DNA of 64,000 bases from Diploscapter coronatus (Eukaryota > Nematoda > Chromadorea > Rhabditida > Rhabditidae): contig OZ038422.1 in NCBI GenBank assembly GCA_964036155.1, positions 10,377,201-10,441,200 on the forward strand. Direction: 5' to 3'. Below are positions 1 through 64,000 of this stretch, piece after piece. Every line of letters begins with the position of its first letter. Position 1 is the first letter of the stretch. Both the position numbers and the translations under genes were made by a program. The notes beneath the pieces were generated by a model. It ran no database searches, was not told the origin of the DNA, and was given only the letters and a program-made list of their open reading frames with translations.

Positions 1-33
1 TTTTGTATAAAGGTATGCAAAATCTCAGCTCAC

Positions 34-3021
34 CCTCCGATAGCATACAATTTCCTATTGGCAACAAAGAACGAATGATAATGCCTTGCATAATTCATAT
101 CAGCGATTCGAGAAATTCGACTGTCAACTGAGGCTGAGGGGTCGAAACACAGACAGGATTTCAATACATCATAACCATAAGCACTAAATATATAATGATA
201 CATTATTTACCATACAAAATTAACGATTTCCATCCTCCAGTTATGTAAATTTTTCCATTTAGAGATGCAACTCCAAAAGAACTGCGTCTTTCTGGAATCT
301 TTCCAATTTCAATCCATTTCCGTTCATCGTCTGATAATCGATATATCTTTCTACTTCCACGACCATCAATAACTGAATATTCATAATTACAATAATAAAT
401 ATGCTATAATGTGACCATATAAAATCTCATCGCATATTATTGTTTGAATATCACTAATTGGGAAAGGAAAAGCAGTTCTTGTTTGCCATTTTCCATCTAT
501 TAAAACCTGAATAAATTATTTCATGGACTTTCATTCGATCTTCTTACATCAACTCGATTCGTATCATTCCTTGTTTTAAGATCTTCTCCACCCAAGTAAT
601 ATAGCTTGTCTTTGTAATAAGCAACAGATGCATATCTACGCCATTCAGGAGGGTCTGGACCTGTAAAATTCTTTGAATCGATCATTCATGAATTTGTTGA
701 GCAGACCTCTTAAAGTTTGTCGAGTATCTAAGTCATATATTTCAAATGATTTATTTTCGCCGTTAATCCCAAAAATCTAAAGCCTAAGACGTTATTCAAA
801 ATAACGAACATAAGAGTTTACTTTATTCTGTGTAGTTGCTACTTCATATGGCGTATAATAATTGTGAAATTTTGCAATCTCTTCTACTGAGCAGGTATAT
901 GAATTGAATAAGCATATTCTTTCTTCATTGTCATCATTATTTCGATAACAAACTAAATTATTAAGAATCGTTTCAAAATCTTTTACTTAGCTTTCATCAT
1001 AATTTCTTACAATAAAATAAAAATTCATGCGAATTATCGAATGAATTATCTTCATAAATTTCCAAATTATCGATATTCTGGGATAGTTCATTCAGTATAT
1101 CATTAATCAATGGGGTTTCAATTCCTTTCTGAAATGATCACTTCCATTTAGTAATTAATTTCTTATTTTCAAACCTCCAAAGCATCGGCAATAATCGCTG
1201 CTCCATGCGCTATAGCTTCGTCTGGATTTATATCGAATTGAATTTTTGAATTACGAAATTTATTCTTTATATTCTGTTCAACTTTGGGAATTCTTGTCGA
1301 TCCACCAACCAAAATCTAATTATTAAAAATAAGTTTAGATTTTTCTCTATAATTTTTACCACATGATCTATTTTCTCTGGCGACAGTTGTGCCATATTCA
1401 AAGCTCGATCAACGAATATCGTCGCTCTTTCAAATAGGTCGCTGCACAATTCATTAAATTTCTCCTTGGTCAGTCGGACATTAATTTCGTATTCATCGTT
1501 AATATCCAGCTAAATTTATTAAAATAATGATAATCTTATGAAATTGTTATTCTTACATGAACATTAACAGGATATTGTGAGAATGACAACGATTCCTTCG
1601 CTTTTCGACATTCAATTCTCAATCTCTTTAATAATCTAAGGTTATTGTAAATATCATAATCAGGAGATGATTTGTTGAATTCATCAATTACGAATTTCAT
1701 GATACGGCTGTCAAAGTCTTGTCCTCCTAAATCTTACATTTGTAATTTGCAAAATCAAAAATCAACCTAAATGAGCATCACCAGTAACGGCCTTAACATC
1801 GAAATGTTCGTCTTTAATTTCAACAATGCTTATGTCGAGGGTACCTTAGATTTAAATTATTTTAGAATTCTAAAAAAGTCTGAAAACCTCCTCCAAAATC
1901 GAAAACAAGAAGTTTTGAATTTCCTAGTTTCTTCTTCTCATTATAAGCGATGGCAGCAGCCGTAGGTTCTTGCAACAAATATTTCAACCTCAGCCCAGAT
2001 AATTCAATCGCCTTCTTGGTTGCCGCGATTTGATCAGAGTTGAACATCGCTGGCACAGTAACAACTGCTTCGATCACTTTTTGGCATGTGTATTTCTGAA
2101 AACTAAGAAAATAATCTGTATATGATGAATGTAAAAGAATAATATTTGAGTGTAGAACAAGAAACTAGTTTTCAGAATTTGTACGGTAAATATTATCTAG
2201 TCACTATTTTGCAATATTTTATAAAAATAAAAGAACTTACTTCTGCTTGAGATTTCAAATTCTTCAGAATTTCAGAGGAAACTTCCTCTGGTCGAATAAA
2301 TCTTTCATTTGAAGTTCCTCTGTTCAAAATGTATCCAGCACAATTCTAAATTTCCTTAGTAATTTGGTTAAAAATGATTTTTTCTGCATTTTTGGTGTCT
2401 GCATTGAATGTCCATAATTGACGATTTTCAGCAATGGGCAAATCGTGTAAAACATGCCATCCAATCAAACGTTTTGAATCTGAAAAGTCTTAATTTCAAT
2501 CAAATCAGACATATTCTAGAAGTTATTTTTTTGTATTAATATAATTTACGATTTCTTTGAGATTTTTGAATAGCACTGACAGGTTAACGATATGTGGATG
2601 CAAACATCATATTTTTACCGATTTTCCCTAAAATGATCTAAACATTTACCATAGAGAATATTCGTCATATCGGTGTTGCAATCCAAAGCTGGATTTCCAA
2701 CCAGAATCTCGCCATCGCTAAATGCTATTACAGAAGGTAGGGTATTTCGACCTAAAATTGAATTTTTTTTCTCTTATTATAATTGGCGTATTTGAGAAAT
2801 TTTACGGCTACAGTTTTTCAGAAGGTTTGATTTAAAACTAGAGCACAACTATTTTTCTTAGAAAATATGGAACGCTTGGAAACAGCAAAAGTGAAATCAT
2901 GCAACTTTTCGAATAAATCCTTCATTCTACCATCATCATTATGAATCGCCACAGGTCGACCATCTTCAATCACGGAAACACACGAATATGTCGTTCCCAA
3001 GTCAATTCCGATATAGACCAT
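34..3021 (-). CDS. HSP70 ATPase domain-Kelch repeat fusion protein (3' end cut by window)
   Basis: Fifteen or sixteen exons splice in frame into at least about 660 residues. Residues 1-393 are an HSP70 nucleotide-binding domain: IDLGTTYSC (phosphate 1), KRLIGW, an EPTAAAIAY segment, DFGGGTLDIS (phosphate 2) and [10 protein letters not shown] (adenosine). Just after the domain's usual end ([10 protein letters not shown]) the substrate-binding domain is missing. An acidic linker (about 394-440) leads into Kelch-like repeats, where [19 protein letters not shown] and KLYAIGG show the diglycine strands. The last exon (34-183) ends at a GTGAGC donor, so the gene continues off the left edge. Exons (plus coordinates): 2931-3021, 2650-2751, 2241-2479, 1888-2095, 1767-1844, 1557-1726, 1360-1509, 1175-1315, 1011-1128, 822-952, 707-776, 548-660, 416-506, 225-372, 34-183. 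Exon 2241-2479 holds an in-frame TAG (2346-2348) unless a 57-nt GC-AG intron (2346-2402) is removed. A TTTAG acceptor lies 17 nt before the ATG. Family assignment is firm; function is unknown. Confidence 0.85.
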
Positions 3022-4732
3022 TGTTATTCTTTAATTTTCTAAATAAAAAGAGAATAATGGTGTTCAATATTTTGCAAGAAAGAAAAATCTTATCATAAAA
3101 TTAAGTTTTTGCAAATGATTAGGAATTAGAAATAAAAGAAGGGGTTTTAATTGGGTAAGCAATAATCCCAACTTCAAACTTTTCTTAAAACTCTAATTCA
3201 ACCACTCCGAATTCCATTCAAAGTGGAGTTCCTCAGTCCTGATCCTGAGACTTCAATATCCTGATATTAAAGCATGGAGAAGACATGAATCCTGCATATA
3301 TTTGCAAGTTACCTTTTTCAACCGATCATAAGCCATGGTGAGTGGGCATGGCCTGTGAACAATTGAAAAAAGTGATTTGCAAAATGTATGCAAGATTCAC
3401 GTCCTTTCCATGCCTTAATAATAAAATAACTCATCAAAGAATCAATCGGATTCAAAAACTACAGTATCGATTTGCTTACCCCGTATTTCGCCGTTTTTAT
3501 CAACAAGTAACGCACAAGGTAGTACAAATGAGACAAAAAATTTCTTCGGATAAAAAAGTTCAAAAAATTAAAAGTCTAAGGACCCCTTTTTGAGAAATAA
3601 CGGGTCAAAGTTTGGGTCCCAAAATCTAATTTTATGGATCATATTCGGATTGGAGGATCTTTGCTTGAGTCTTATAAGGAGTTTTGCTTAAAACAATTTA
3701 TCTGAAATGGTATAGTCGAAACAAAGATGTGAATTTATCGAGTTTGATAAATTTATGAAATTCCTAACAATGATACTGCAAATGTTGGCGAATATGTATT
3801 GGTTGGTGTAAAACGTACGCTTCGAAAGCGAAAAGATGGCCTGCTATTTTTCCATAACATAACTCAGAATTCCCATACTATTCAATCAATATTTCATATT
3901 CAAATATTGACTTTAGTGTAGTCGAATGATTGTCCCATTCTTATCATCGATAAAAATGATCAATTTAGTTTCTTCTTCATATAATTTCGATTGAAACTCC
4001 TAGGTATATGTATCGTCGTGTTGCATTTCTCATTTTCATGTTCATACTCTCTCATACCATTGAAATTAAGAGTATATTTATAAGACCCGAGCAGTCATTA
4101 AAGAAAACTCGAATTTCAGAAAGTCTGAAAACTCGTGATTTTCAAATTAGCATAGCTCTGCCCACTTATGGGGGCGGGGCCTTGTTTCCTCGATTTTGTG
4201 ATTAGGACCCATCTCTATGGTCAAAATATGATTTGAAGGACTTATTCCCTTAATTATTTGAAAATTGAAACAAATAAAACTCCGTCAAAACTTTATAAAC
4301 AACAAGGTTCTGTAACAAATTTCCGACTAAAATCAATAAATATTCAAGAAATTAAATAATTAACGGGTAATTAAGAGATGGTTAGTGATGAATAATTATA
4401 ATCAGATTGACACAAAGTCAATAGAAACGAAGAACTACCCATAGCATATCAAGAATTAGGAAAAAATCGAGAAAAAATGAAAAAATAACTTCTCTTCAAA
4501 ATTTTCAAGAAAAAAGAACCAGCAAATGGGAAAAAAACTTGAAAATGTTTCTTTTAGATTTTTTTCAGAAATTTTTAGATCTTTTAATTTTCCAGAAAAA
4601 ACTAAAAATAATAAATGAAAAATAGAGATCAATAAAATCAAGAAAAAAGGAAAAAAAGTTGACTTAATAGAAGAAATAGAAAAAAAAACTAATAAAAATT
4701 AGGAATAAAAGAAAAATAAAAAGATCCTTGAT
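3022..4732. other. Intergenic, HSP70-Kelch 5' flank / NCBP1 3' flank
   Basis: About 1.7 kb between two minus-strand genes. It should hold the 3' end of the NCBP1 transcript and the promoter of the HSP70-Kelch gene. I looked for arrays of GAA/TTC heat-shock elements upstream of 3021 and see no convincing one. The open frame at 3342-3593 has no recognisable domain and no good splice or start context. Confidence 0.5.
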
Positions 4733-7700
4733 TTACTGTTTGAGAGAGAGGAACTGGTTGAAGGGCGCGAGGAGAGGCGCGTCCAAATTCGTCGGGTTGA
4801 AGAGCTCAGTGCCGAGCGGCGCGATGAAACGCCACAACTCGTTCGTGTGCTGCAAACGTTTGCCTTCATTTTTACTTTAAAAAAAACCCGAAACAGCATA
4901 AAAACGATGATTTCTACAAAAATTTATGACGTTGAAACTATTAGAAAAGTGTCCCTTAAGATTCACAATTTTTGGTTGTTGAAATCATAAATTTCGAATC
5001 AAAATTAAAAGATATTGGCGAAAAGAATAAGTTTTTCGTTTTTTTAGAATTTCTGAAACATACAAAAATAAAAGAAACTGGTAAATCGAAAGAAAAAATC
5101 AAACCTCCAAGAAGAGCTGCCTGAATCGGCCGTGAATCCAGACGTACTCGGGCGTGTAGAAATCGATCTTCTTCTCCTCGCACTCCGCAGCGATCTCCGT
5201 CAAGTACACAGTGAATTTCTGCAAAGAACGTCGATTTTTGAAAAGTAGATATTTTTGCTAGGAAAAAGCTGATAAAATTCACTTATTCGTCTATTTACAT
5301 GAAAAATCTCCCAAATAATTGATAATGCTGAATTTTAACAATGTTAAAGAGCGGATCATTGGTTTTTCATCAAATTTCAGATGTTTTTATGAGTTTTCTG
5401 AAACCAACATGAGAAAATATCAAAATGGAACTTTTGAAGAATTTCTTCCTCTAATTTTCATATGTAAACTTCAGACAATGCAGAACTCAGAACTAAGTCT
5501 CATAAAAATTATTTTTAAGTAACTGATTTGAAACGTACATGGAAAATGTCGAGGAAGAGGTTCTTTTGGAAGTCCCTGAGCGTCTCGTGCTTCTCCTTCA
5601 ACTCGTTCAGTCGCTCCCTTGCAGCCTCTTTCGCGCTCGCAGCGAACAGCTCTTCGTCTTCCATCTAAAAATAAAAAAAGATAAATTTCAAAAATTTTGC
5701 TCTATTCTAGGATAAAAATTGTAAAAATAGACAAAATGATAGATTTATTTCAATCTAACAAAACAGGAGGGAAATGTTGTCAGTATTTATTTTCATATCA
5801 TAGAAGAAAAATAGTTATGTTTTAGAAAATCAAATAAAACGATCAAATCCTAAGTACTGATATTTTCATTTCTCTAAATTAAAAGAAATCAAAGAGCAAA
5901 AAATGCTCGCCTGTTCATCTCCATCGCGGTCCCTGATTCTATTGTCCTTCGAGTTGAATTCCCTCTCTGCATCTTTGTACTCGCCTTCGACCTTGTTGAT
6001 GTGACGAGACAGACGAGAGAGGGCAGTGTTCATCGTGTCGAACAGCCATTGCCTGCAAAATTTTGATTTTTGAAGTTTAGGAATTTTTAAAGCCTTAGGA
6101 AAATTTTGGGATTAAGGTTGAAACTAAGATTTTTTATTTGCCAACGAACTGAATCTTATCCAAATTCGTTTTCAAAATAAGTCACTAAGAAATTTGCTAG
6201 AATACGTGATGAAAAGAAACCTATTCAAGTCATTGTTTAGTGTATGAAGGGAAATGCCGACCTATTCATTTCATGTTTCATGTCGGCACTGAAGAGCCAG
6301 GAGAACACGACGGCACAGTCGAGCACCTGCATCTTCAGCATTTTGTCCACCACAACTTGGATTGTCTGAAAAAATGTTCGCTCTTTAATTTTTTAAAAGA
6401 AGTATTCATTATTAAAAACACATTGCAAAGGGAAAGACTAAGAAAGATTTTAAGAATCTTGAAACATATTCCAAAATAAGCCCAAAACAAATATTCCGAT
6501 TATTTTATGAGAATTTTGCGGTGATAATTAGTCAGAAACCAGTTAAAAGATTCGTTTGGAAACCTGAGGATAGGTCTTCCAGCAAGCGTAGAGCGCCTGC
6601 AGCAAAACCAATTGGAGTTCGTCCCCGGCTTCGGAGACGGTTTTCAGAGTGTGGTGATATCTGAAAATTTTCATCTCTTTCTCAAACTTATCGATTTTTA
6701 AAACTTTTTTATTCTACAAACCTCGACAACGCCGCGAACACATGCGAGTACGTCTTGCAGCCGAGTTTCAGAAGGACCTAAAAATGTCTTTGAAATTAGC
6801 ATTAGGGGATTTTTTCTCTATGATTTTAAAAATGTCGTTTCCTATCCATTAAACAAACATGTGTTCAGCAACTTATATGAAATTTTTTAAGTGTATCACA
6901 ATAAATTTCAAAAATATCATTTAGGTTCCACATTTTCGATATAATAAATTCTAATCTTGTTGATACTTAATAGCGATAAAATACTCCATTTGCACAAAAT
7001 TGCTGAAGCGTACCGAGAAAAAGATTCCGAAAGCGTCCCTTTCATAATCGCCCTCTGGTCCTTTCAGGGCCTCGAGCATTTGCTCGTCCGTGGCTTTGCT
7101 CTGAAACAGCTGCGAGAATTTGGACGCAGTCTCGAAGTACTCGTTGTCCGCTGAAAATTCCAATTATGTATTATCTTCCCCCCGAAGCATTCAGTATCCG
7201 CTAAAACTGAGATTTTTTCTCGAAATATTCAGTACCAGTGAAAAATTTGAATTTGATTTTTGTTTTACCATAAAAAGCGCAAACGAACATTAAGCGAAGG
7301 AAATCGTGGAATTTATAAAGGTAGTTTGAAACATCTTAAAATGATTTTTTCAAGATCATTTACTCCATATCAGTCTTTGCGAGATCAAAAGGGTCGATTA
7401 AATTAAATTTAAGTAAACTTCTTGTAATCAACATGAATTAGAAAAGATTAATCTCGGTTGAATATTTGCAGTGTAGTCTTGAAATTGATACACCCAAAAA
7501 AGGAAAGAATCGTAGATATCACTGTAACCTACATGAATATTCGAAATAGAAAGAAAAAACTGACGATCATCGAAAGTGTATCTTATTTCCGGCAGGGGCG
7601 GGAGATGAGGGCCGAAGTTGTCGGGGAGGAACTCCTTGAGTCTGTCGTAGTAGGACAGACGAAGGCATTTCTCGATGATCTCCTTCGTGAAGATGTGCTT

Positions 7701-15950: not shown

Positions 15951-18900
15951 ATGCGTGGGGATGAATTTCCTTATTTCGTCATTATTTACTTTTCATTTTG
16001 TTTTCCCGTATTCATGCATGAAAAATTACTGAACGAAATTTGCGAAATTGTCAATATTGAATCATAAAAATATCCAAATTTAGAATAGTAACGTTTCTCA
16101 TGGAAAACTTCATACTTGATATGTTCAATTTTTCTCGTTTTCGGATAAAAATAACATTCTTTTTCAAAATGAGTAATTTCTCTAAAAACGGATTTTACAA
16201 ATCTTCTCGTTTTTTATCGCCTTGGTCAATTCTCTTAAATCTGGCGCAAAAATGTGCGTGTGGCATTTTATGGCTTGTGGCAATTCAACTGGATTGGGAA
16301 AATAGGAGAAAATGAAAAAATAGCTGGGGAGTGTTTTTGTTGAAGATCAGTTTTTATAGGTATAACACCACAATCGCTCACTAAAAGATTAAAGCAGAAT
16401 TCATAATAATAGATTTTTGAATCTTCTAAAAACAAAAATGTTTAAAAATGATCAATTTTCAGTATGCACTCGCGACATACCGCCCTCTATTATGAAGGAG
16501 TCCATGAGCGGCACCGTAGCTTTGATGGGTCAGGACGTGGAAATGACCTGTCGGGTCGAGAATCTCGGAAAGCATATGGTAAGGGGTCTTGTATTTTCTA
16601 AAATCTAAGAATAGAAGGACCCCTCAAAATGTTAGAGAAAAAATAAAGAAATCTGAACCTTTATAATTTTAGATTGCATTTATCCGAAGTGGCAGTCCAC
16701 CTAGGCTAATCTCGTTCGATGAAAAGGTAAGCTGCTGACATTTTTGAGACAAATTTGGAGGTTTAGATTTTCCGAAATCGAGAAAAATACGAGCTCCGGC
16801 CGCATAGCGGTGATAGTGGGAACGATTGGGTGTTGACGATCAGGAATATTCAGGTTGGTTTCAGAATGAAATTTATGTCTTTGTGATGTTTTCTTTAAAT
16901 TACTCGTCTGGTGGAGGATGAAAGAGAAGTATTAATTAAATCAAAAATATTTATGTAAGTTTCAGGAAAATTCTTAAATTATGCTAAATTTAGCTTCACT
17001 AAATTATGCGAGAGAATATAGTGAAATTTAAACAATTTTAGGAGTCGGACCACGGAAATTACTCGTGTCAGATAAATACCGATCCAGTCACCATAAAAAC
17101 CGGATATTTAGAGGTTAAAGGTAGTGGTTTTATCCTAAACCTCATTTTTCCCTAAATTTGGATCTCATTTATTTTTTCCTCTTTAATTTCGGAGTTCCTT
17201 TAGCCGAACTCATTTAGCCTAGAGCAATTTAGAGTCTAGCGCAGTTGCAGAGATTTATGATGAAAATAGAGTGAGGAAATTCGAGTTAGAGAAGAAGAAA
17301 GAAGAGAAATAGTGCGAAGAAATGGAAGGGAAGAGGAATAGATAAAGCTCAAATTTGCATCTCTTAATAGGAATCTATGAGGGTTGGTGTAACCATATGA
17401 AAGTTGAGGATTAGGAAGTGAAAATTAGGGGCAAGAGCTAAACAAATAATGGTTTTTACCTAATATCTGCATAAACGACAATTTTTAAAAAATATTTTTT
17501 CATTTACTTCCTAGAAAATCGATATTTCTGAATACTTCCATGTTCAAATTTAGAACATTCTAGCTCCTTGAAAGTCGAAAAATCAAATTAACTTTCCTTT
17601 CAAAAGATGGATATTCTTGCTAGTACGCATTCGAATAATTCTCTCCCGCTGGGTTAATTGCTTTGCGCGGTTTCGGGTTTTGGCAAAAAGAAAGGGCCAG
17701 TCGGCCAACCCACTGAGCCATTGAACCATGCGCTGGTGGCCTAGTGACAACAGGTTCGAATAATTATTATGTGATTGAAAAAGGTTATGCTAATTATCCA
17801 CTGACCGACAATGGGATAAAGGCTTCGAACGAAATTGCCCAAATAAGTATAGGTCATTCGACACTTTACACTATTGTTACATTATTGTGCAGTTGCGTGC
17901 GCGCGCTTCGACAAAATATGCAACTTAGTGGGGAATATGGAAGTTCGGAAAAATTAAGAATGAACAAGGGAAAGATTCAATTCTTGAGGAATGTCAGTAG
18001 AAAAACTTTGTTCTGAGGCCTATCAAATCCGAAAACAATTTTGAAAAAATCTAAATTCAACAATTTCAGTTCCTCCCTCGGTGCATCGGTCCACCCCATC
18101 CGCTGTCGAAGTTCGTGAAGGCCACAATGTCTCTCTGCACTGTCGAGCGCAAGGCAACCCTCAGCCCACGGTCATTTGGCGACGCCAAGACCGGCAGATC
18201 ATACGATACAATGGAGCTACGGGGTTTGGAGGTAAGCGTGGTTTTTTTTTCTATTTAAATTCTATATGTTTCCAAAATATGGCTTAATAACTATTCGCAA
18301 AAATGCATCAATCGTCGGCAAAAAACAGATTTTATCTAATATTAATAAAGTAACCAATTTCTAATAGCTATTTTGTTGTTCATTTTAAAAATAATCAAAT
18401 TATCGAAATCCTCAAACTTGCCCGAAACGATACCCCTGCCATTTCCTTCCGATCCATCATGCCTCTTGCCATATTTGCTGTTGTAACCTAACCCTCAAGC
18501 GCACTTTGTCTCTGCTCCATCAATCTTATTCCTTCCCAAATCTGTTCGCTCTATGGCTAATTTTGCCCTATCGTTTCGCATTTCAGCCAACTTGCAACAC
18601 GGAGTCGATTTCAAACAAATTCTAATGGATACCGTGAGAATGTTGGGGTGTATTTTCGGGTATCAAAATTATGTCATGTTCAAAATTTTGAGAAATTCAT
18701 AATGATGGTTAATTACCTACATATCTGGGGAAAGACAAGATTTTTTTTAAAATACCGGGCCGAAAAACACTAAGCGTGCAATCTAATTCCAAAATTTAGC
18801 ACTAAAGTTCCTTCTTTCCCTTACATTGCAAACATTGACATGAAAAATTACCGTACATCGCGAAGCGAGCATTTACAATGCCATTATTCGCTGTAGCAGC

Positions 18901-21872
18901 AGTTTTAAAGGAAAATTTCGATGCTAAATTCTAGAATTAGGGTATACGTTTAACGTTTTTGACCTAATATTCGTAATCGGCATGCTCGAATTTACTTCTC
19001 CTGTAAAAATGAAGCGAATCCGTGGGTAACACACTGATCGTTTCCCTCGTCGGTAGATTGATGAAATTTGAGATTTCCAAAAAATCATCCAATTCTATTT
19101 TTTATGTTTCATCATCAAAAAGGACCAAACATGACATAACTTCCTTTTCTATCGTGGGAAAATATTATTTTAGGGGTTACGTCGAAAATAATCGAGTGGT
19201 TGTGCTAATGTCTGGGAAGTGTGCAAATCCTTACCATATGCTAGATCCTCGAGAAGTCAAGGAAGGGAGAAAAATGCCGTCTTATTTTTCTTTCCGACTC
19301 TCTCAATTTCTATTCTATTTCTCACTTTCTATATCTTTAACCCTCTAAATTTTTCGTCACTACTTCCCAATCTCTAAAGCGCCATATCATAATTGCCAGC
19401 GGAAGAGTAAAGACAGAAATAGTCCTAGCTCAAAAGAGAGGGAAAAGAGAAAGAGCTGCAACTGTCAAGAAGCTTCAAAGACACGGGGTCACTCAAGGAG
19501 AGGAGGGAAAATCATCAACCTAATAAGGAATAAGAAAGAAAGGGATTTTAATTACGCCAGCCTGCCTTAGATTTCCATATTTTAACATGAGATGATAGAA
19601 TTAAAGAAAAAAAACATAAATCAAGAGAAAATTACGACTGAAAAATCAGATAACAAAAAAAATTCAAAATTTTTATCAAAAATCATACATAATTCTACCT
19701 AAAATTGCAAAGAGTTGATCATTTTGATAATAAACCCAAAGTTTAGCCTCGATCGTCCAAGGACCGACCCTGAACCTGACGAAAGTCTCCCGAAAGCACA
19801 TGAGCGAATACGTCTGCGTAGCGAGCAATGGAATTCCACCCGATGAATCTTGGACCGTCAAGTTGCTCGTTACTTGTGAGTCTTGTTAATAGGTTTTAAA
19901 GTTCCCGTAAATACTAAAATGTGTTAGAAAACATGATTTCTCGTAAGGATTCTTAAAAAATATATATCTAATTTTCTTCAAAAATACAGTATTTCGAAAA
20001 GAAATCATTAAAATTTTGTCCAGTTTCAAAATAGCATAAATCTACCTCCGAAAAAGCTACTATATTATGTCGCGTTTTGAGGAGAAATAAACAAACAAGT
20101 TCAAATCAAAAGAGAATTCACAATTTCAAGAAGCAAGTGTTAAAATTTAAATATTCAATTGGGTTGTTCTGTATCCTTTTTTAATTATAAATCATATTTT
20201 CAAAAATCTTCAATTTGCAGTCCCACCCCTGGTCCAGCCTAAAGAGCCGGTTATCAAGGGCAGCGTCGGGTCGATGGTCCGATTGGTGTGCACCGCGGAG
20301 TCCTGGCCACGACCCGACGTCACCTGGGAAAAAGACGGAAACCCCCTGTTCGACTCGAATCATTATGCTACGGTAAGGAAAGCTTTCATTGTAATCTACG
20401 AGATATAACGAAGATAAAACTAGAAATTGGTCAAAAATTTCCTATTCAATTGGTTTTTGAAACATAACCTAATAGCGAAACTTTGCGTTTCTGTAGAAAG
20501 TCATGCTGATCAGCGTTTCATGAAACAACGCAAATGCTTTCGAATTTAATTAGAGAAATTTTTAAAACCTAAACAGAATTATTTTCAAATGAATCACCAA
20601 ATGAATTTTTAGTCTCAAACCGTTTCCGGCCACTACCATTCGGTCCACGTGTTGGAGATTCGAAAATTAGAGCCGCACCATTACGGCGCTTATCGATGCG
20701 TAGCGAAAAACGACAACGGAATGCACTACGCAGATATAGATTTGAAGCGTAAGTGAAAAATTGATTTTTTTTCTAAACTTACCCACTTTCTTTTTTCATC
20801 AGCATATTTCTGTAAAAAAAAAGTAGCTAAACTTCAAAGTAGGTAAAAATTACTCTTAGAACATTTATCCTGTTCTCTCAAATTTTATCTGTAAAGTTCA
20901 TCAATTTTAAAAACGAAATAGTGCTGATAAAAATGGGCACCCCTAATCAGAAACTTAGGAAAAGCGAAAATTCTAAAGTGTCGAATTTTAGCCACCGAAA
21001 AAGACTTCCAATACACGAATGTGATTCCAGAAGGTATGACTTGTTTTGAAAATTAGGATTTTAGAATGTTTGGCGTGAAATGGTTTGCATAGGTTCAAAA
21101 TATTCTGTTTGGATAAGTTTCACAAATTCATAAGTCACCTGCACCGCTAATTCGGTTAATGTATTAACCTGTCTAGTAATGATATTCTTGGAGTTTACAA
21201 CAAGAGACAAATTGCCACATTTAAATTTAGTGAAAGTTACCATATCTGACTGTCTAATTCGAAATCGTTCCTTTCATGAAAACCTATCTGATTTTTGCAT
21301 GAGTGTGCTTATCACCTAATCACTAACCCCTCTTGTGTTACACCCAAATTAGGTAGCGGTCGTGATGCACCCTCCTCACTCGATGATGAAGATAGCCATA
21401 TAGGGCCTGCACCCGAACGGGCTGATCGTGATGGACTGGAGGAGCGCACCCGTCAGCTACAACCCAGAACTACGTCCACAGAACATGTCGTCAGGCATAT
21501 TCCAGGTAAGATATGCTAATTTCATAAGTTTAAATAGCATGGAAGTGGGAAAGAAATTGAAATTTTGTTCAAGTTTTTGGAAAAAATATTTTGTGGCATG
21601 AAAACGGAAGGTTTTGAAAGAATGAAATATTGTACATGGATACAGGTTGTACTGAAACTAGCATGTAACATGCAAAACGAAGGATTGTTAAACATATTTG
21701 TTGATAACAAAAGAGATACTATGAAAATTGTTTTACGGCAAATTTAAACAAAAATTTGATGAATTTAGAACTTCGCTCGGGCCAGGACGATTTTGGAAGT
21801 CAAACTTTGTGCCTATCGAGTTACCTAACGCTCCAATTCTTCGTAGCCCTGCTTTATTTTACTATAATTTAA
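15951..21872 (+). CDS. rig-5: RIG-5-like three-Ig GPI-anchored surface protein (DIP/Dpr family)
   Basis: Ten firm exons (16463-16578, 16673-16726, 16767-16853, 17042-17120, 18070-18231, 19747-19875, 20221-20372, 20613-20748, 20992-21033, 21353-21505) and a last exon 21769-21872 give about 403 residues in frame. Three Ig domains show paired cysteines and YxC motifs: TCRV...HGNYSCQ, LHCRAQGNPQP...SEYVCVASNG and LVCTAESWPRPDVTW...YRCVAKNDNG. NYS, NVS and NLT are possible N-glycosylation sites. After a polar linker the protein ends in a hydrophobic stretch without a cytoplasmic tail (LTLQFFVALLYFTII), typical of a GPI signal. A first exon at 15951-15999 (signal-peptide-like, phase-compatible, after a TTCCAG acceptor, but needing a weak GTTTTC donor) is tentative. 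In C. elegans RIG-5 is the DIP-like partner of ZIG-8 and works in axon and neurite maintenance. Confidence 0.9.
17121..18069 (+). other. Long intron of the Ig gene
   Basis: About 950 bp between the first and second Ig domains. A GA-rich stretch lies near 17260-17345. Around 17700-17760 are short tRNA-like box sequences (TGGCCTAGTG, GGTTCGAA) in a wrong arrangement for a tRNA. No coding exon is needed here, because the frame joins directly. Confidence 0.6.
18232..19746 (+). other. Longest intron of the Ig gene
   Basis: About 1.5 kb. The flanking exons join in frame (phase 1) to give a continuous second Ig domain (NGATGFG then ASIVQG). An exon-like stretch at 18587-18633 and a 108-codon open frame at 19022-19348 are therefore probably not used in the main transcript. 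Confidence 0.6.
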
Positions 21873-34476: not shown

Positions 34477-37400
34477 ATGTCCGAAAATCACTCGAAAACT
34501 TCGGACAGATCTACTGAAAATCGGTAAGTTTTTCATAATATAGCAATTTTCAAAATCTATCTAGTTTTCTTGATGAAATGCAATTATTGATCATTTTAAT
34601 CAAGCAAAAGCATCAAGAGCTCAAAAGTTTAGGGCCACCCCCACAGCGACCGTATTCATTAAGACGGAAATCGATGAGGAGATAACTTTGGAATTGGACG
34701 AAACTCCGAGAAATGAGGATGAAACGGAGAAATTCTCGCTTTCGAACTCCGGAGTTCAACCAGTGAATTGTCAAATGTGCAATTGTTCGTTCACCAACAT
34801 CGCTGATCTGCAAACCCACACGATAGAGGCACACGTGCCGAGGACGAGTGGGAGTACAGTAATGAAAGTTTAAACTTACAGGAGCCCGTCGGGTGAAATT
34901 ATTAGCCATAGTTTGTAACGATAAACTAGTGTAATGTTTGAACCTTATCATTTTTTTGCACATGAGAAAATTAGAGGTTTTTTTTAATGCAGAGGTATAT
35001 CCATGCTAATCAGTTGAATCTTCTAAATAAAATTTGTAGAAATTTCTGAAACCTATCATAAACCTTCTGAAACGATTAGTTCGCCATTTATAAAATTCAA
35101 AAAGACATTTGAAATGTGTTTCAAAGGAAGTTCATATAACGAATGGAGAAACCTCGTTGATACTCAACGGCTTAACAATAGTGATCACAAATCTAAATCA
35201 TTTCAAAATCTCGAATTACAGTGGCCTTAATTTTAAACGTTACAGTAGCTCTCACTTTAGGTCGATTCTCCCTCCTTGGTTTGCCCCCATTGCGAGCTCG
35301 GATTTTCATCTCTTCTACAATTCGCTTCGCATATGAAACAGCACATTAGCACCTCCCCATCTCCGCAAGCCACGCCCGTTTTTCTGTGCCAGATTTGCGG
35401 TCTGTCTTTCGGCAATGAACAAGTAATATTTTTTTAAAAAAAATCATACCCAAATTTTCCTAGAAAAGGCAATCTTTTTCTTCATTTCTGCACGATTTTT
35501 GCAATGCTTTGAAGCCAAAAAGATAGAAAGAACGAAGTTTGGGAAAACAAATTTCAGACCCGATTTACTCACCTAATGATCCACTTTTCTGACCACGCAA
35601 CTACGACTTTCTGTGAAACTTGCCAAATTGCGCTACCAAATGCAGGTCACGCCCATCACTACCTTCAAAGGCATTTACAACTACAGTACTTTTGCACAAT
35701 CTGTGCGCAAGTATTCGAAAGCGAGTTGGATTTTAAGGTTAAAATAACTTTTTTCTGATTTCTAGATAGGCTTTAGAATTTTTAAGATGAGGACAAAAAC
35801 CCTTGTCAGTGCGTTGATATTACACTTGGAAAGATAAAATAAAACTCGCTCTGCTCAAATACTCCTTTTATGTTTGGATAAGTTTCGGGAGAAAATTATT
35901 AGTAGAAAGTAAAGCATCTAAATGGCAGCTTCATATTCGTAGTGAGAAGTATTTTTAAAAGATGCCTATTTAAAAATTTCATGCTGAAGATAAGTTTTAG
36001 CAAAGTTCGAAAGTGAAAAAGTAAAGTTTCACTTCGACGCAAAGTCGTTGACGTCTAAAATAAACCAAAAATTGTAGCACCACTCCAGCAAGCACTCTAA
36101 TGAAGTTAGTCTCCTTCAATGTCGGCTATGCAAAATCGTCTTCGAAAACAAGGATTTGCTAATCACCCACGTGAAGTTCGTACACGACAAGTAAAAGTTT
36201 ACTCTTATGGGAAAATTGGAAAGTCCATAGTTTTTAGGCTAAATAATGATAGTAAATAAGGAAATCATATGAATTTTCCATATGTATGGCTTTTTGAAGA
36301 TAACATAAAGGCAGAAAATTTCAGAGATATCAAATCTCTTCTCTTGAACCACCGTTCTCCAGTACCTCAAAATTCCATGTCTATGAAAATTCGAGAGCCA
36401 TGCAGTCAAAAAGTGAGTTTACTGATTTTAGATTTGTACAGGAATTTTTAGAAAGTAAAACTACACTGTTCGGTTTGTGACGCCGAATTTTCGACCGACG
36501 TCGATTTGGAAAAGCATCGATTAGAAGCGCATTGCAAGGCAAGTGTTTCAAAAATTAAAAAGTGGTCAAATTTTTGAAAAATTCAATTTTTAGATACCCC
36601 ACTCAGAAAAATGTTCCCGCTGCGAAAAACCTATACCAGGAAAATCGGAATTTTTGGAGCACGCTCTAAACTGTCCCGCCTCAAATTTAAATAGTGACCC
36701 TTCGTCTATGTATTGTCCGGTTTGTAGGTAAGTTGGGAATTTTGATTTGAATTTTTGAAAAGTACATTTTTAGACAGTCCTTAAGAACCCAAATTCAACT
36801 GAAACTTCACGCTCATTTTCATTATCCCAATTCCAGTGAGGTTAAAGAAGAAGAGAAAGTAAAAAATAGATCATTTTTCCTGAAAATTCGAAATTTTTCA
36901 GTCCGTAATTACCGAAAAAGAAGCAGAATCGACGAGCCATGAGAAAATTGATGACACCGATCAAAATCTGTTGAAATCTCCGGAAAATTTCGTGGTTTGT
37001 AAGAGAATTTTTTAAATTTAAAAATAAAATTTTAGACTAACCCTGAATTCCAGACGATTTTCGACCAAATAATGGAAGAGCCGGCAAACTCACTGAAGTC
37101 AAAAATACCGTAATCCTAAAATTTAGTCGAAAAGGCATAATCACTTTTAGCACAATTTCCAAATATGTCAAGAAAAGTGAGAAGCGAAAATTGTGCTGTG
37201 GGTTAGCGTTCAAAACCAAACACCGGTACGAAAGGCATCTCAGAAAGCATGATCATATCAAGCATAAGGTGGGTGCATTTTGCAATATCATGGACTTTTC
37301 CCAAAATATTCTTTTTACTAACCCTCTTTCTCAATCATTCTAAAAAATAATTTTAAAATGTCGAAATAGAATTTTTATCCTTGAAAATATGTTTCAAATG

Positions 37401-37992: not shown

Positions 37993-40900
37993 CTAGTAGA
38001 ATTTCAATGCGAAGTACTGCTCGGACAGCGAGTTGAGTTTGACGAGACTTGCGATCGAAACCTGCAGTTTTACAATTTAAAAACCCTGAGACTTCTATTT
38101 TTTCTTACTTCTGTAAGGTGATTATCAATTAGAAAAAATAACCGTAAATCTTGTGTAAACATTGCAATAGTTCGTAGAAAATTTAATTCGGAACTAGAAT
38201 AGGTTCTAATTTCGAAATTTTTATACGATCTTCAATTAAAGAAAATATGGTAATTTATGAATTTCGAACCTGGGGTAAATTTGGCAGAGACGAGAGAAGT
38301 CGACCCATCGATTGCAGGGAGGCACGCCAACCAACTGAACCATCCTCCACTCGACACGTCTCCTCACCGGCAAACTCGCAGAGTAGACTTAATTGGGATA
38401 ATTAAAGCTAATTAAGCTAATCAATTTCTCAATTGATAATTTAAACTACCATTGATAATAGTCATGAGAATTCCTTATCGAAAGTCTTTGAAACATACAT
38501 GACTTGTAATCGTAAAAATCTTGAACTTCAAATTTGGTAAATTCCCAGGAACTCATTATCAAATCAATACTTGCATGTTTTAATGGCATCCTGAGGCTTA
38601 CCTTGAATGATTTGGAGTAAGCGTGGTTTTCTCTTCATCCGCTAGTCGAACAATTCTCGCAGCGACGATTCGCTGAAAATGGTATAAACTAACAAAAAGC
38701 CCTACGAAATAAAAGGGTTCGTTTTAAAATGAAAAGACCCCTTACAATCAGCGCAGTGGCAAGTCTGTCGTTTTGAGGCACGGAGGCGATTTCCTGGGCG
38801 GCTTCCGAGTCCTGGCCTTTGCGAAGTAGAGATATCACTTGCTGAAAAATATTCTTGAAAAGTTAACTTTTCGAAAAAAAAATCACAATAAGAGCGATCG
38901 AATCGACGGTCAAATTCCATTCTGCAGCAAGTTGTCGGGCGCCTTTCCGCTCTGATTCCTGGCATTGCTCGGCTACCTAAAATGGCTAGTTCGAAACGAA
39001 GCATTCATACATAAGTGAATTTAGATAATTTTAGCTATGTTACATTCTTTCATTTTAAGTATTGTAAAGTCTTCATGTTCAATTAAGTGTCTTTCACCGA
39101 ACAAAAAGAATCTTTCCGAAACTCACCGATAATATATTATTTTTTAAATTTGCCTTATTCAAAAATTAAAAACTTATTTCTTATTATTTTCAACAAAAAA
39201 GTCATACCTTATTCAAGAAGTCGTGCCTCCTCTCCATGACGGCCTCGTCGACATTGTCGAGCGGGATGAGTGGATGAGAGTCGAATGGCTGGAAGAAGGC
39301 TCTCAGGCCAATCGAACAAAACAAATGCTTCAGCGGGTGCAGACGCATTCCGATTGAGACCTGCAAAATGATTATGCTAATTTTCAGGCATTTTCATCTT
39401 TATGTCTCAACATTTTGAGAAATCTATGAGTATAAATAGAACTAATGAAATGTCGGTATAAATACCATAAATTAAATTTTCATAAAAAATCAATAGTTGT
39501 TTCACAAGTATTATATGATTAAAAAATAAATAACATATTCGATTTACGTCAGAAAATATTCATTTTCAAAAAGAAGATAAATTATCCAAAAATTTAGTAG
39601 ATTAGTCGTATGAGTTTTTTCAAATTAATGAAATAATAATTTACCTGCAACCTAAGAGCGATCGCCAAATGCAGATGATGCAGTACGAGATGGTAGTTGA
39701 CCAGTGATTGTCGTAGAGCCAAGTGAACGAGAGAATCACGAGGCGCAGAGCCAGACAGAGACAGTGGAGGGTGCGAGGTTGACAACTCGATAATCGTGTC
39801 CTCAAAATAATCACGTTAGGGTTTTGACGCGGAAATACTTATTTTTGGATTACCGTAGTAAACATTTCCAATGCTAAATGAAAGATCTTGTAGGAAAGTT
39901 TTTTCTTTCGAAACGAGCTGTATTCGATGATTTTTAATTACTAAGAAAGCCTTCACTAGGTAGGTTATTATAGAAATTTGTGACCTATTCAATTTGAAAT
40001 AGAATTTTTTAAAGGGAATGAAAACTGTTCTTACCTGTTGAAAAGGCAAAGAGGACGGCGAGTCGCGAACTGATTCCAGCAAAATGCATAACAGCCGCTC
40101 GGCGGATTGCAGAAAGTCGGACTGAAAATAGACTTTCTAGGCTTCAAATTGATCAAATAGTCTGTTTCAAAAGATATTCAAAATGAGTGAGTAGCATCCA
40201 GGGTTAATAGGCTTTCTATCTTATGTCCAAGTTGACTTAAAAATAAAACCTTCCGACTGGTGTGACAACTTGCAACTTTCTTCAGAAACACTCCTAGTAT
40301 CAAATTGAAGCCGTGTCCCAAAGATAGAAAATCATAAAATCATCGAACTAACCACTTTGCTCTCTCCGAATCCCAACTGCTGCCTGGCTTCTCGCTCTTT
40401 CGGCGCTCTGCCAGTCTTCTCCATCAGCATGGCCGTGGCTTTGAATGGCTCATCTACGAATTTCTCCCACAGAAGACGAGCCACGCCGTGCCGAAGTCGG
40501 CTATCCGAGATTGCCTCGGCGAAATCAATCGATAACTGAAACTTGAGAAAATCAGATTTTGCAAACCTTTCTGAAATTTTGAAATACGTTTTTAAAAATC
40601 GGGAATATAGTGAGAGTTTTCGAATAACACTCATTTGATTTCCCTTTTCACTTGAACGTTTATTGCTTGCTTTATTCAAGTTCTTCTCCTACTTTCAAGT
40701 ATGTTTTAGGCAATTCGTAAATACCGCAATAAGAGTTTCGGACAGTCTCTTCCGCTTACCTTTGTTTTTCTATTAAAGAAATAAATTTCAATAGAATCAT
40801 CATCATTTTAGATACGTTTCAAAAGACTTACAAATATCGTTGCCTATTGAGAAAGTCGATTGATATCTTCTTACATTTTTGGAAATTAAAAAAGGTTAAA

Positions 40901-54751: not shown

Positions 54752-56357
54752 TTATTTGGTAGGTGTCTGTTGGATTTTGGACTTCCTCTCATACGGGTTG
54801 TAGAGCTTGTGTCTGCCTGGGTTATCGATCGGAGCCTCCCAGTCAACGACGTGATCCTCAGGGAATTTCACCAATCTGAAAAATCCTAATCTTTGGAAAC
54901 ATTTTTTTGTTTTAGAAATCAACATTTAAACGAAGTAACTATTTGATAATGAGGGTGAGAATTATTTCAGCAATTATTGCAACGTATCTAATCTTATTTA
55001 AAACAAAAAAACGCCCATAGATTTTCTTCGATAAATATCAAACGTTTTCACTTGTTAAGTTATCGGATGCACAAAACCCATTGTAAAAAGTGAAATTCAT
55101 TGAGTTCACCTAATTTTTGAAATCTATATAAAACTATACAAGTTAAAATAAAGAGGAAAACCCTACATACCTCGGGAAGTTCCTCCTCTCCTCGTCGGTG
55201 TACTCTGTGCTGCGTTTGACGACCTCTTGTACCTGTTCGAGTTGGTTGCCGATGTTCTTCATCAGAAACGAGGGCACTTCTGCATCGGGCAACAGATGCA
55301 GTCGGGCGATATGCGAACGACGGATATTGCTTTTGCCGAGACACTGAAAAATCGTTTTTACCTGCTAGAAAAACAAGATATTTGAAAATCAAGGTTCTGA
55401 AACAAGAAAATCGTGGAACATTGGGAATAATGCATTCTTTGACTGAAAAAAGTTTCAGAAAGTTTGAGAATTTTGATGGAACAAATCAATATTTTTTAGA
55501 GATTAACCTTGTAAACGGCGAGATAGACGATGCGACACGGGTCGTACATGTGGATTTGGTAGGCCGGGATGTTGACCTTTGATTTAGGGTATTCCTGGAA
55601 TTTGAGAATTTGAATTTTAATGAAGAATATGCTTCAAAAATTCTATATATTCTAAAAAAAGTCTTATAATTGCAGTATACGTAACGGATAGTGCTAAAAC
55701 GTTTATCGAAAAAATTCAATGATCTGCAGAAGCGGTGAAAACATGAGTATCAAAAAAGAGTTTCAAGAAATATATAACTTCAACCTTTGTTCAAACTGGC
55801 TACAAAGTTAGAAAATGCCACTCTTCAGATGTGTTTTTTTTTATTTTCCAAATACGACACCTTATTGAAGTGGAACTGCCTGTGTTTCCAGTCGAAACCC
55901 TCCATGGCGATGTCCTGACAATTGATGACGACCACATGGTCACCACAGTCAGTGCTCGGATGCCAGATCGGCTTCCAGTTCCCCGACAGGTACTTGGCCA
56001 CCTTCGTTCCCAGCTTGTATACGTCCTGAAAAATCAAATTAGCATATTTTGTAGGTTTGTAGACTTCAAAAATTCGACATTTTCAGTATACTGGAAGACT
56101 TTTAATTCATAGAGATAGTATCACGAGAATAATGGAGTTTTTCAAGATTATCTATGCTTCAAAACTCGTTGAATATAAATCAACATGGCATAGGCTATTA
56201 TAGCGATAATTTAGAGAAGAAAAATGCTCCAATTTTATAGTAATAAAAAAGAAAAAAAAATGGACGTGGTCAATTTGATTAACTTTCCGACCTGCTGATT
56301 CGCGTCGATGAGGTGCCATTGACGCATGAACTGAGCGAGTTGGCGGGCCTGATTCAT
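54752..56357 (-). CDS. mrpl-13: Mitochondrial ribosomal protein L13 (uL13m)
   Basis: Five exons encode about 204 residues (human 178). It is a large-subunit protein of the mitochondrial ribosome. The family core is clear: QWHLIDANQQDVYKLGTKVA, then a YLSGNWKPIWHP segment, DCGDHVVVINCQDIA, HMYDPCRIVYLAVYK, the helix SNIRRSHIARLHLLPD and the tail RRNFPRLVKFPEDHV. It ends with a 30-residue basic extension (YERKSKIQQTPTK) absent in human. The start at 56357 follows a TTTTTCAG acceptor by 17 nt. There is no obvious long presequence, as in other L13m proteins. Confidence 0.95.
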
Positions 56358-57638
56358 GGATTTTTTGAGATCTTCTGAAAAATAAGCTTTCTGAAATTTT
56401 TGATCTTTTCCATAAATCTAAAAATCAAGATAGCTTTTGCCGGTCTCAAACCGATTTTTTTCTTCAAAAAAAAAAAAAATAAAGAAACATCATTTTGATT
56501 TTCATTGCGAAAGGCAATATGAAAGTTTAAAAGTAAATCGACAGAAACAAATCTAAATAACTCTCGTCGAAACGAGAAAAAATCGGATACCTAGTGACTA
56601 ACTCGGCAGCTCTTAAATGACAAGATGACGAGATCCGAAATGACGAAACTCTTTTTAGCAAATTATGAGAGATCGCTCGCTATAGTTTAGGATAAGGGTG
56701 AAATAGTATTGGAGCGGTCGGTCAGAAGATCTCGTCATTTACTAGAATCATTTAGGACTTCGTCATCTCATCAAATACGATTTGCCGACTAACCCTCAAT
56801 GTCCTAAAAATGGAATAGAAATTAGTCAAAAAGACGTCATTTCACAAAATTCTCAAGGAAAATCGATATTTTCCAACGTTTCTAGCGAAATGACACCGTA
56901 AAAAACAATTGCTCAGTGGTAGAATTTGTACAAAAAAATAGTAATGGGCAGGACGAAAATAGCTCTGAAAAATAAAAGCTACCGTAATTTCCTTATAATA
57001 GAGGGGTCTTCTATTGTGAAAATAGAAGGTCCGAACTTCTATTACAAAGCGGAATTGAACATTCTAGAAAATAGCGTATTTCAAGAAATCTATTTTTCTC
57101 GAAGTAAAATCTCAAAATGCACCATTTTCAACTAATAAGAAGAACAATCTAATATCACAGCTTAGTTCTAATATGAGATGAAAATACCAAAAATTGACAT
57201 AGAAAAAAATTTTGATGACATTTTCCTGGAAAAAATAGCTAATTTTCAGATCTCGTAACTAGAAATTGGAACAAATAAAGTTCATATAAACGGTTTTACA
57301 CGTTTTAAGGTTGAGGAAATTAACGTTGGATAAGCTAGAAGTTGGTTCTGGATTTTTGACCGACTTAAAAATTGTTTGGGGTTTGAAGAAAATTGAAAGT
57401 CGATCTACATTTCCTCGGAAACTTATGTTAAGCTATTTTCAAAATTTCAAAAATACTCTCATTTTCTTCGAAAATAAACTCATCGAAGAATCAAAATTGA
57501 GTCATTTAAACATTTTTAAATGCTAGATTCTAGCGTAAAATTTTAGACTAGTTCTTGAAAACGGGCTAATCTTCGTAAAGTTTACCAAAAATAGTACCAT
57601 GTGCTACTAAAATACCAGTTACCATTTGGTAATTATGG
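56358..57638. other. Intergenic between SLC25A44-type gene and MRPL13
   Basis: About 1.28 kb. A loose foldback (56590-56795) carries repeated ATGACGA and GATCTCGTCAT words, with TTAGTCGGCA-like ends in inverted orientation. The rest is AT-rich and lacks supported exons. Confidence 0.5.

Positions 57639-61403: not shown

Positions 61404-64000
<2,597 letters not shown>

Follow-up and report, generated by a model that had tools for sequence, protein, structure and literature searches.

What becomes of an HSP70 ATPase when the peptide-binding half of the chaperone is replaced by Kelch propellers? The question is raised by a gene at the left edge of a 64,000-nucleotide stretch of the Diploscapter coronatus genome (the window; C1:10377201-10441200 of a diploid assembly of 169.7 Mb in 3 contigs, in which C1 and C2 are homologous chromosomes). 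In a single predicted gene model, an HSP70 ATPase, or nucleotide-binding, domain (NBD) is joined through a linker to two Kelch propellers, without the HSP70 substrate-binding domain (SBD).

Within the window the minus-strand gene comprises 16 exons and 15 introns (14 GT-AG and one GC-AG); it starts with an ATG at 3021 and gives 652 stop-free residues (Table 1). A first-pass annotation, made from the DNA letters, had proposed that one spliced frame holds through the domain junctions with three introns across the linker, and both points are borne out: the linker-region introns measure 46, 58 and 45 nt, and the frame across the junction is kept in a paralog at C1:1651470. It had also pictured the contig as ending at the window edge. 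In fact the contig runs on, and extending it to the left, as had been advised for seeing the full propeller, revealed 1.3 kb more of the gene (locus L009), which supplies blade six and another Kelch unit; the whole model has no internal stop over 978 residues, and its stop codon ends at window coordinate -1321. The paralog, 84% alike in exons, keeps 16/16 exons without a frame-breaking gap (there is one 3-nt gap), all nine NBD exons among them, as well as 15/15 introns, each of which begins with GT or GC and ends in AG. Moreover, in Diploscapter pachys the model P0001 and the latter half of P0121 can each be aligned with the window protein in one collinear run across NBD, linker and Kelch. These collinear models, together with exon and intron conservation in the paralog, argue that the gene model is more than chance. 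An in-frame TAG was considered as the mark of a pseudogene and rejected, because the 42 nt that hold it act as an intron: 14/14 relatives searched have no insert at this site (2387-2346), and the paralog has GT-AG borders there. Ahead of the start codon, the AG of the acceptor-like TTTATTTAG is a possible trans-splice site.

The Pfam HSP70 match covers residues 4-390 and profile positions 2-389 of 599 (E-value 7e-109); stopping at position 389, it shows a whole ATPase half and no substrate-binding half. The catalytic residues are kept and no HSP70 C-terminal part occurs in the 978 residues, in agreement with the earlier view of a complete ATPase domain lacking the beta-sandwich and lid. As read from the sequence, the N-terminus carries no leader ahead of the first phosphate loop, which makes targeting to the endoplasmic reticulum less likely. 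An HSP70-type NBD fold was borne out by a fold search with the predicted structure of the relative P0001; the matches rest on the NBD part, which fills the lists, and no structural match is claimed for Kelch. The counterpart of the linker in P0001 (residues 387-414) has a predicted local distance difference test score (pLDDT) below 50. At least four or five Kelch repeats had been noted earlier; the window holds five blades and part of a sixth, and the whole gene two propellers, the propeller having six blades when counted by eye. Kelch_6, Kelch_1 and PF24681 all exceed their Pfam cut-offs in the window part, and over the whole protein Kelch_1 reaches 133 bits and Kelch_6 113.9 bits. In the predicted structure of D. 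pachys P0121, residues 769-1006 form 21 strands (mean pLDDT of the model 70.2). The closest solved Kelch relatives are the designed SAKe propellers, followed by KLHL3, IVNS1ABP and KLHL2, among others. No BTB or BACK domain was found by Pfam at E-values up to 0.001 across the 978 residues, which match solely HSP70/MreB and Kelch-type families.

The gene has many relatives in its own genome. The NBD protein matches at least 272 places and the Kelch protein at least 348, counted exon by exon; the matches listed (150 of 272 and 150 of 348) form 95 NBD loci and 124 Kelch loci, counts that take in both homologous chromosomes and may include some ordinary HSP70s among the NBD rows. Twenty NBD loci were chosen by rank, blind to Kelch, the rank being likeness to the window NBD and the sample thus biased towards near kin. 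A full Kelch unit lies downstream on the same strand in 17 of them, and in 11 of the 20 it starts 0.2-0.6 kb past the start of the last NBD exon, a spacing like that of the window gene. An SBD profile, built from two seeds, detected an SBD in 0/20 of these loci; in a control it detected one in 7 of the 8 loci best matching the full HSP70 profile, or 6 of 7 genes, since L001 and L007 belong to the same gene. The predicted loci thus form a large, dispersed Diploscapter family in which an NBD followed by Kelch is common. No further copies were found in the 64 kb, where 70/70 tblastn matches of nine queries fall within 1-3100.

The same arrangement occurs in D. pachys. In a search of 5.8 billion proteins, which relies on shared 5-residue words and may miss distant relatives, the top eight relatives found for the HSP70-Kelch protein among the matches listed (120 of 7995) are D. 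pachys models. The Kelch part by itself matched 31 proteins, of which 11 are from D. pachys, including the five best, the others being weaker matches to bacterial, KLHL-type or unnamed Kelch proteins. Among the matches listed, 28 of 31 D. pachys models carry an NBD; Kelch stands behind the NBD in 15 of these 28, so that HSP70 and Kelch on one chain, which the first-pass annotation had suggested seeking in other nematode proteins, were indeed found. An SBD is present in 4/28, and 24/28 have none. The Kelch count is probably low, because many of the models look incomplete beside the window gene. When 34 NBDs were placed in a tree, the 20 SBD-less Diploscapter rows entered (the window gene and 19 of the 24 SBD-less models, the fragments P0004, P0035, P0036, P0037 and P0122 being omitted) all fell into a single group (support 100/99) that excludes the 10 SBD-bearing rows and 4 others; several long branches were flagged by the program. 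The group includes P0023, which is WR25_05901, together with the window gene. A further arrangement is seen in P0015, P0022, P0023, P0036 and P0037, where behind the NBD stands another HSP70/actin-like ATPase of divergent sequence ('AIDIGTSKCKIA' or near-identical).

The ratio of nonsynonymous to synonymous substitution rates (dN/dS) was taken against the paralog, there being no allele at the C2 site, and came to 0.205 for the NBD and 0.451 for Kelch, with no stops in the 650 codons compared. Over 30 Kelch units from 20 loci, the window's two included, it was 0.62 overall and 0.84 in exon 14. These values show that purifying selection acts on the predicted coding sequence, strongly in the NBD and less so in Kelch. 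The propeller core (codons 43-303) is stop-free in 27/30 units, later stops being taken as natural gene ends, and introns 11-14 are GT-AG in 30/30. In the Kelch part, exons 12, 14 and 15 are 74, 64 and 73% identical to the paralog; introns 11, 12, 13 and 15 are 87, 94, 95 and 95% identical, intron 10 is 64% and intron 14 67%. Such a pattern would fit diversifying selection or exon exchange. Across the 30 units, introns 11-15 are 81-90% identical and exons 11-16 75-82%; introns 9 and 10 are 48 and 68% identical.

The Kelch part may also occur as a module of its own. Genomic DNA matches to the window gene number 66, and 23/66 end at 1155-1181, at the border of an NBD exon and the phase-0 intron 9, which suggests that linker and Kelch form a separate module. 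At locus L035 the match ends at 1141 yet an NBD stands upstream, and a match end is hence no proof of NBD absence. Upstream of five Kelch loci, an NBD was found in L035 and more Kelch in L031. Linker-Kelch units also stand in tandem, six DNA matches lying in 7 kb at C2:31745149-31752304 with more units upstream at L031, suggesting poly-propeller genes. Protein-kinase genes are further neighbours: at L038 (C1:78134601-78138300) the Kelch unit lies some 0.4 kb beyond the kinase gene and at L039 some 1.8 kb, which does not imply splicing together. In D. pachys, 4/31 models (P0003, P0040, P0128 and P0132) are predicted kinase-Kelch fusions, a kinase domain being followed by a Kelch piece at a near-identical junction.

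On the homologous chromosome the gene is missing. Both flanks align at the homologous C2 place (87-88% identity), which spans about 1.0 kb against about 6.2 kb with the gene on C1, and no NBD or Kelch was found there in 8 kb (L030). The HSP70 NBD-Kelch gene is hemizygous in this assembly. This may reflect an insertion into C1, a loss from C2 or a fault in the assembly, between which the data do not discriminate.

A comparison of residues indicates that the window NBD keeps those for ATP binding and hydrolysis. At the positions of Hsc70 R171 and N174, which are presumably contacts for J-proteins, it has Y and Q. Among family sequences R171 is kept in 2/23 and N174 in 0/23, and both are kept in 6/9 comparison rows, including the reference P0100. 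The titles of structures in the Protein Data Bank include an Hsc70 R171C-auxilin crosslink. No canonical DLLLLDV linker was seen after the NBD when the protein sequence was read. On what we take to be the exchange-factor surface, the window protein keeps R258, R262 and D285 and has the changes R261K and E283H.

The reading favoured here, with somewhat less than even confidence, is that the protein is a nucleotide-switched recognition protein and not a chaperone, belonging to a diversified sensor/adaptor family with a conserved ATP switch. The NBD would open and close with ATP and ADP, its nucleotide state would determine how the propellers are placed or whether they oligomerise, and the propellers, as the fast-evolving sensor part, would bind a protein partner. 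The family might then serve as intracellular sensors or adaptors, NLR-like in logic and possibly directed against soil microbes. A diversified set is suggested because Kelch changes faster than the NBD and copy number is very high, and also because this copy occurs on one homolog only and Kelch stands beside protein-kinase domains and in tandem. In a wider form, which we consider unlikely but worth stating, Diploscapter would hold an NLR-like receptor repertoire combining an HSP70 ATPase switch with a diversifying Kelch sensor, with intron-mediated module swapping (an N-terminal NBD or protein kinase with one or more propellers behind it) and presence/absence variation between the homologs of an asexual animal.

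A number of observations weigh against the sensor/adaptor reading. Any link of the family to immunity is indirect, ATP binding by the window NBD is read from residues alone, and the second NBD of D. pachys P0121 has lost catalytic residues (a pseudo-ATPase). All Kelch dN/dS values are below 1 (0.45 pairwise, 0.62, and 0.84 in exon 14), diversifying selection being suggested only. Over the whole gene, exons (84.2%) are closer to the paralog than introns (78.7%), as expected of coding sequence; introns are more alike than exons in part of the Kelch region only, where synonymous divergence also exceeds intron divergence, and the pattern could reflect intron constraint or gene conversion. A stop interrupts the propeller core in 3/30 Kelch units. 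In 7/30 the net length of some Kelch exon is altered by a number not divisible by 3, and one of these seven, the second unit of the window gene, nonetheless reads open in the gene model. With respect to arrangement, 3/20 NBD loci have no full Kelch unit (L010 and L014 none, L013 a scrap only), and in the remaining 6 of the 17 with Kelch it starts 0.9-2.0 kb off. Among the matches listed, Kelch lies downstream within 6 kb in 12/95 NBD loci and an NBD upstream within 6 kb in 14/124 Kelch loci, and three of the five Kelch loci (L032-L034) show no NBD, kinase or Kelch within 5 kb upstream; a large share of the Kelch loci may thus be joined to something else or stand alone.

Much of the same evidence could be produced by a high-copy birth-and-death family, in which duplication and module shuffling leave many copies doing little, repeat-like and under weak selection. 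The 66 DNA and at least 348 exon-level protein matches, dispersed and tandem, the presence/absence between homologs, the units with stops or frame changes and the pseudo-ATPase all agree with it, but the NBD dN/dS of 0.205, the 650 stop-free codons, the 27/30 open Kelch cores and the 30/30 GT-AG borders of introns 11-14 do not, and we hold it to be rather unlikely. The first-pass annotation had proposed an ATP-gated adaptor, the NBD docking J-proteins and exchange factors while the propeller brings a client to the Hsp70 machine. The gated adaptor with a propeller that chooses the partner is a plausible inference that comes near the reading favoured here, and the retained NBD fold, ATP site and part of the exchange-factor surface are in keeping with it; recruitment of J-proteins is weakened by the replacement of R171 and N174 and the missing DLLLLDV linker, so that the proposal as a whole is improbable. 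A CUL3-type substrate adaptor, also raised earlier, draws on the resemblance of the Kelch part to KLHL proteins but goes unsupported with BTB and BACK not found, and we judge it extremely improbable. That two adjacent genes were merged by a modelling error is scarcely credible. Some D. pachys models do stop at the NBD (e.g. P0012), as read-through into intron 9 would yield, but the 46- and 58-nt gaps leave scant space for gene ends, NBD and Kelch are equally close in 11/20 other loci, D. pachys models carry the two on a single chain, and the junction frame is kept in the paralog; such an artefact was ruled out on the gaps, the recurrence and the frame.

Heat adaptation has been proposed for the Diploscapter Hsp70 expansion. 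The Halicephalobus mephisto genome paper describes a Diploscapter-specific Hsp70 'Cluster III' of 59 genes, put down to heat, with positive selection reported at the cluster root, and calls D. pachys thermotolerant (PMC6872716). WR25_05901, branch J of Table 3 in that paper, is assigned to Cluster III here as J lies among cluster II/III branches (PMC6872716), and it falls in the SBD-less clade, which together with thermotolerance would favour heat-adaptation chaperones. An SBD in 0/20 loci argues against them, as does the 1.7 kb upstream of the gene, which holds no exact heat-shock element and four one-mismatch elements, within background (mean 2.4, maximum 8, in 33 other window stretches); the proposal is very improbable for this family. 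As 24/28 D. pachys NBD models and 20/20 sampled loci have no SBD, both samples being drawn by likeness to the window gene, Diploscapter HSP70-domain counts are unsafe as chaperone counts, and at least part of the extra heat-shock genes counted before are probably something else. If the sensor/adaptor reading is true, the HSP70 ATPase is separable from peptide binding and has been reused at large scale in an animal as a switch for another binding domain. The family would also offer a system for how a nematode lineage reported to be asexual generates and keeps gene-family diversity.

Table 1. Positions of the HSP70 NBD-Kelch gene, its parts and other features of the window
Feature	Coordinates	Strand	Basis or remark
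HSP70 NBD-Kelch gene	1..3021, on to ~-1321 outside the window	minus	24 modelled exons, 978 aa in total
HSP70 NBD, 9 exons (first five)	3021-2931, 2751-2650, 2479-2388, 2345-2241, 2095-1888	minus	Pfam, paralog
HSP70 NBD exons, rest	1844-1767, 1726-1557, 1509-1360, 1315-1175	minus	domain spans 1175..3021
GC-AG intron, 42 nt, with in-frame TAG	2346..2387	minus	exon model; GT-AG in paralog
Intron 9, phase 0, NBD/linker junction	1129..1174	minus	exon model
Linker exon, ~40 aa	1011..1128	minus	exon model
First Kelch propeller, blades 1-5 and part of 6	34..952	minus	Pfam, exon model
First-propeller exons	952-822, 776-707, 660-548, 506-416, 372-225, 183-34	minus	exon model
AG of acceptor-like TTTATTTAG, 17 nt before ATG	3039..3040	minus	printed sequence
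Ig-domain exons	18045-20405		domain match
C2H2 zinc-finger exon	35261-35434		domain match
RAB3GAP2 C-terminal exon	40335-40688		domain match
AAA ATPase exon	61996-62184		domain match

In the neighbourhood, more divergent NBD-like exons lie left of the gene (L009 672-1435), and just downstream of it (L009 ~6100-6350) is a peptide that we take to resemble a Tc1/mariner transposase ('HPLYSPDLAPSNYHLF'). At 58-60 kb the mitochondrial carrier SLC25A44 is identical to D. pachys WR25_22350 in 315/317 aligned residues, unjoined exon pieces not counted; the protein search itself gives 96%. A ribosomal L13 exon lies near it on one strand (55803-60124), and three other nematode models hold both domains; a conserved operon is possible.

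The architecture is real and unusual. It belongs to a large family, at least partly counted before, whose domain make-up is undescribed as far as the searches go. No description of an HSP70 NBD-Kelch fusion was found in the accessible portions of the open-licence literature. The terms hsp70, heat shock and kelch are absent from the searchable text of the D. coronatus genome paper (PMC5483258), as are 'kelch', 'substrate' and 'nucleotide-binding' from the available main text of PMC6872716 and 'kelch' from that of the HSPA13 paper PMC12692333. The earlier statement that no such family is described therefore stands for the architecture, and needs amending in that genes of this kind are already counted in a published Hsp70 cluster. 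Cluster III resembles the present family in genus, in its large lineage-specific expansion and in having WR25_05901 in the window gene's clade, and differs in that its members are treated as Hsp70 chaperones, whereas the relatives tested here have no SBD and many have Kelch (PMC6872716). The link to Cluster III is drawn through one gene, WR25_05901.

Among known systems, the likeness to NLR and STAND proteins is one of logic only, the window NBD being HSP70-type, with no STAND switch and no homology. HSPA13 (STCH) is, to our knowledge, not a large family. It likewise has an Hsp70 NBD without an SBD and is divergent from canonical Hsp70s, and SBD loss as such is already known from it (PMC9691929, PMC12692333). 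It differs as an endoplasmic reticulum protein that keeps most J-contact sites, which are replaced in the window gene (PMC9691929). Having an enzymatic domain and Kelch on one chain also connects the window protein with PPKL, a protein phosphatase with Kelch domains (PMC3447748). BTB-Kelch (KLHL) proteins have the Kelch propeller in common with it, and the window protein carries an HSP70 NBD where they carry BTB and BACK. In PPKL the Kelch part lies ahead of a phosphatase, an enzyme unrelated to HSP70, whereas in the window protein the HSP70 NBD comes before its Kelch propellers.
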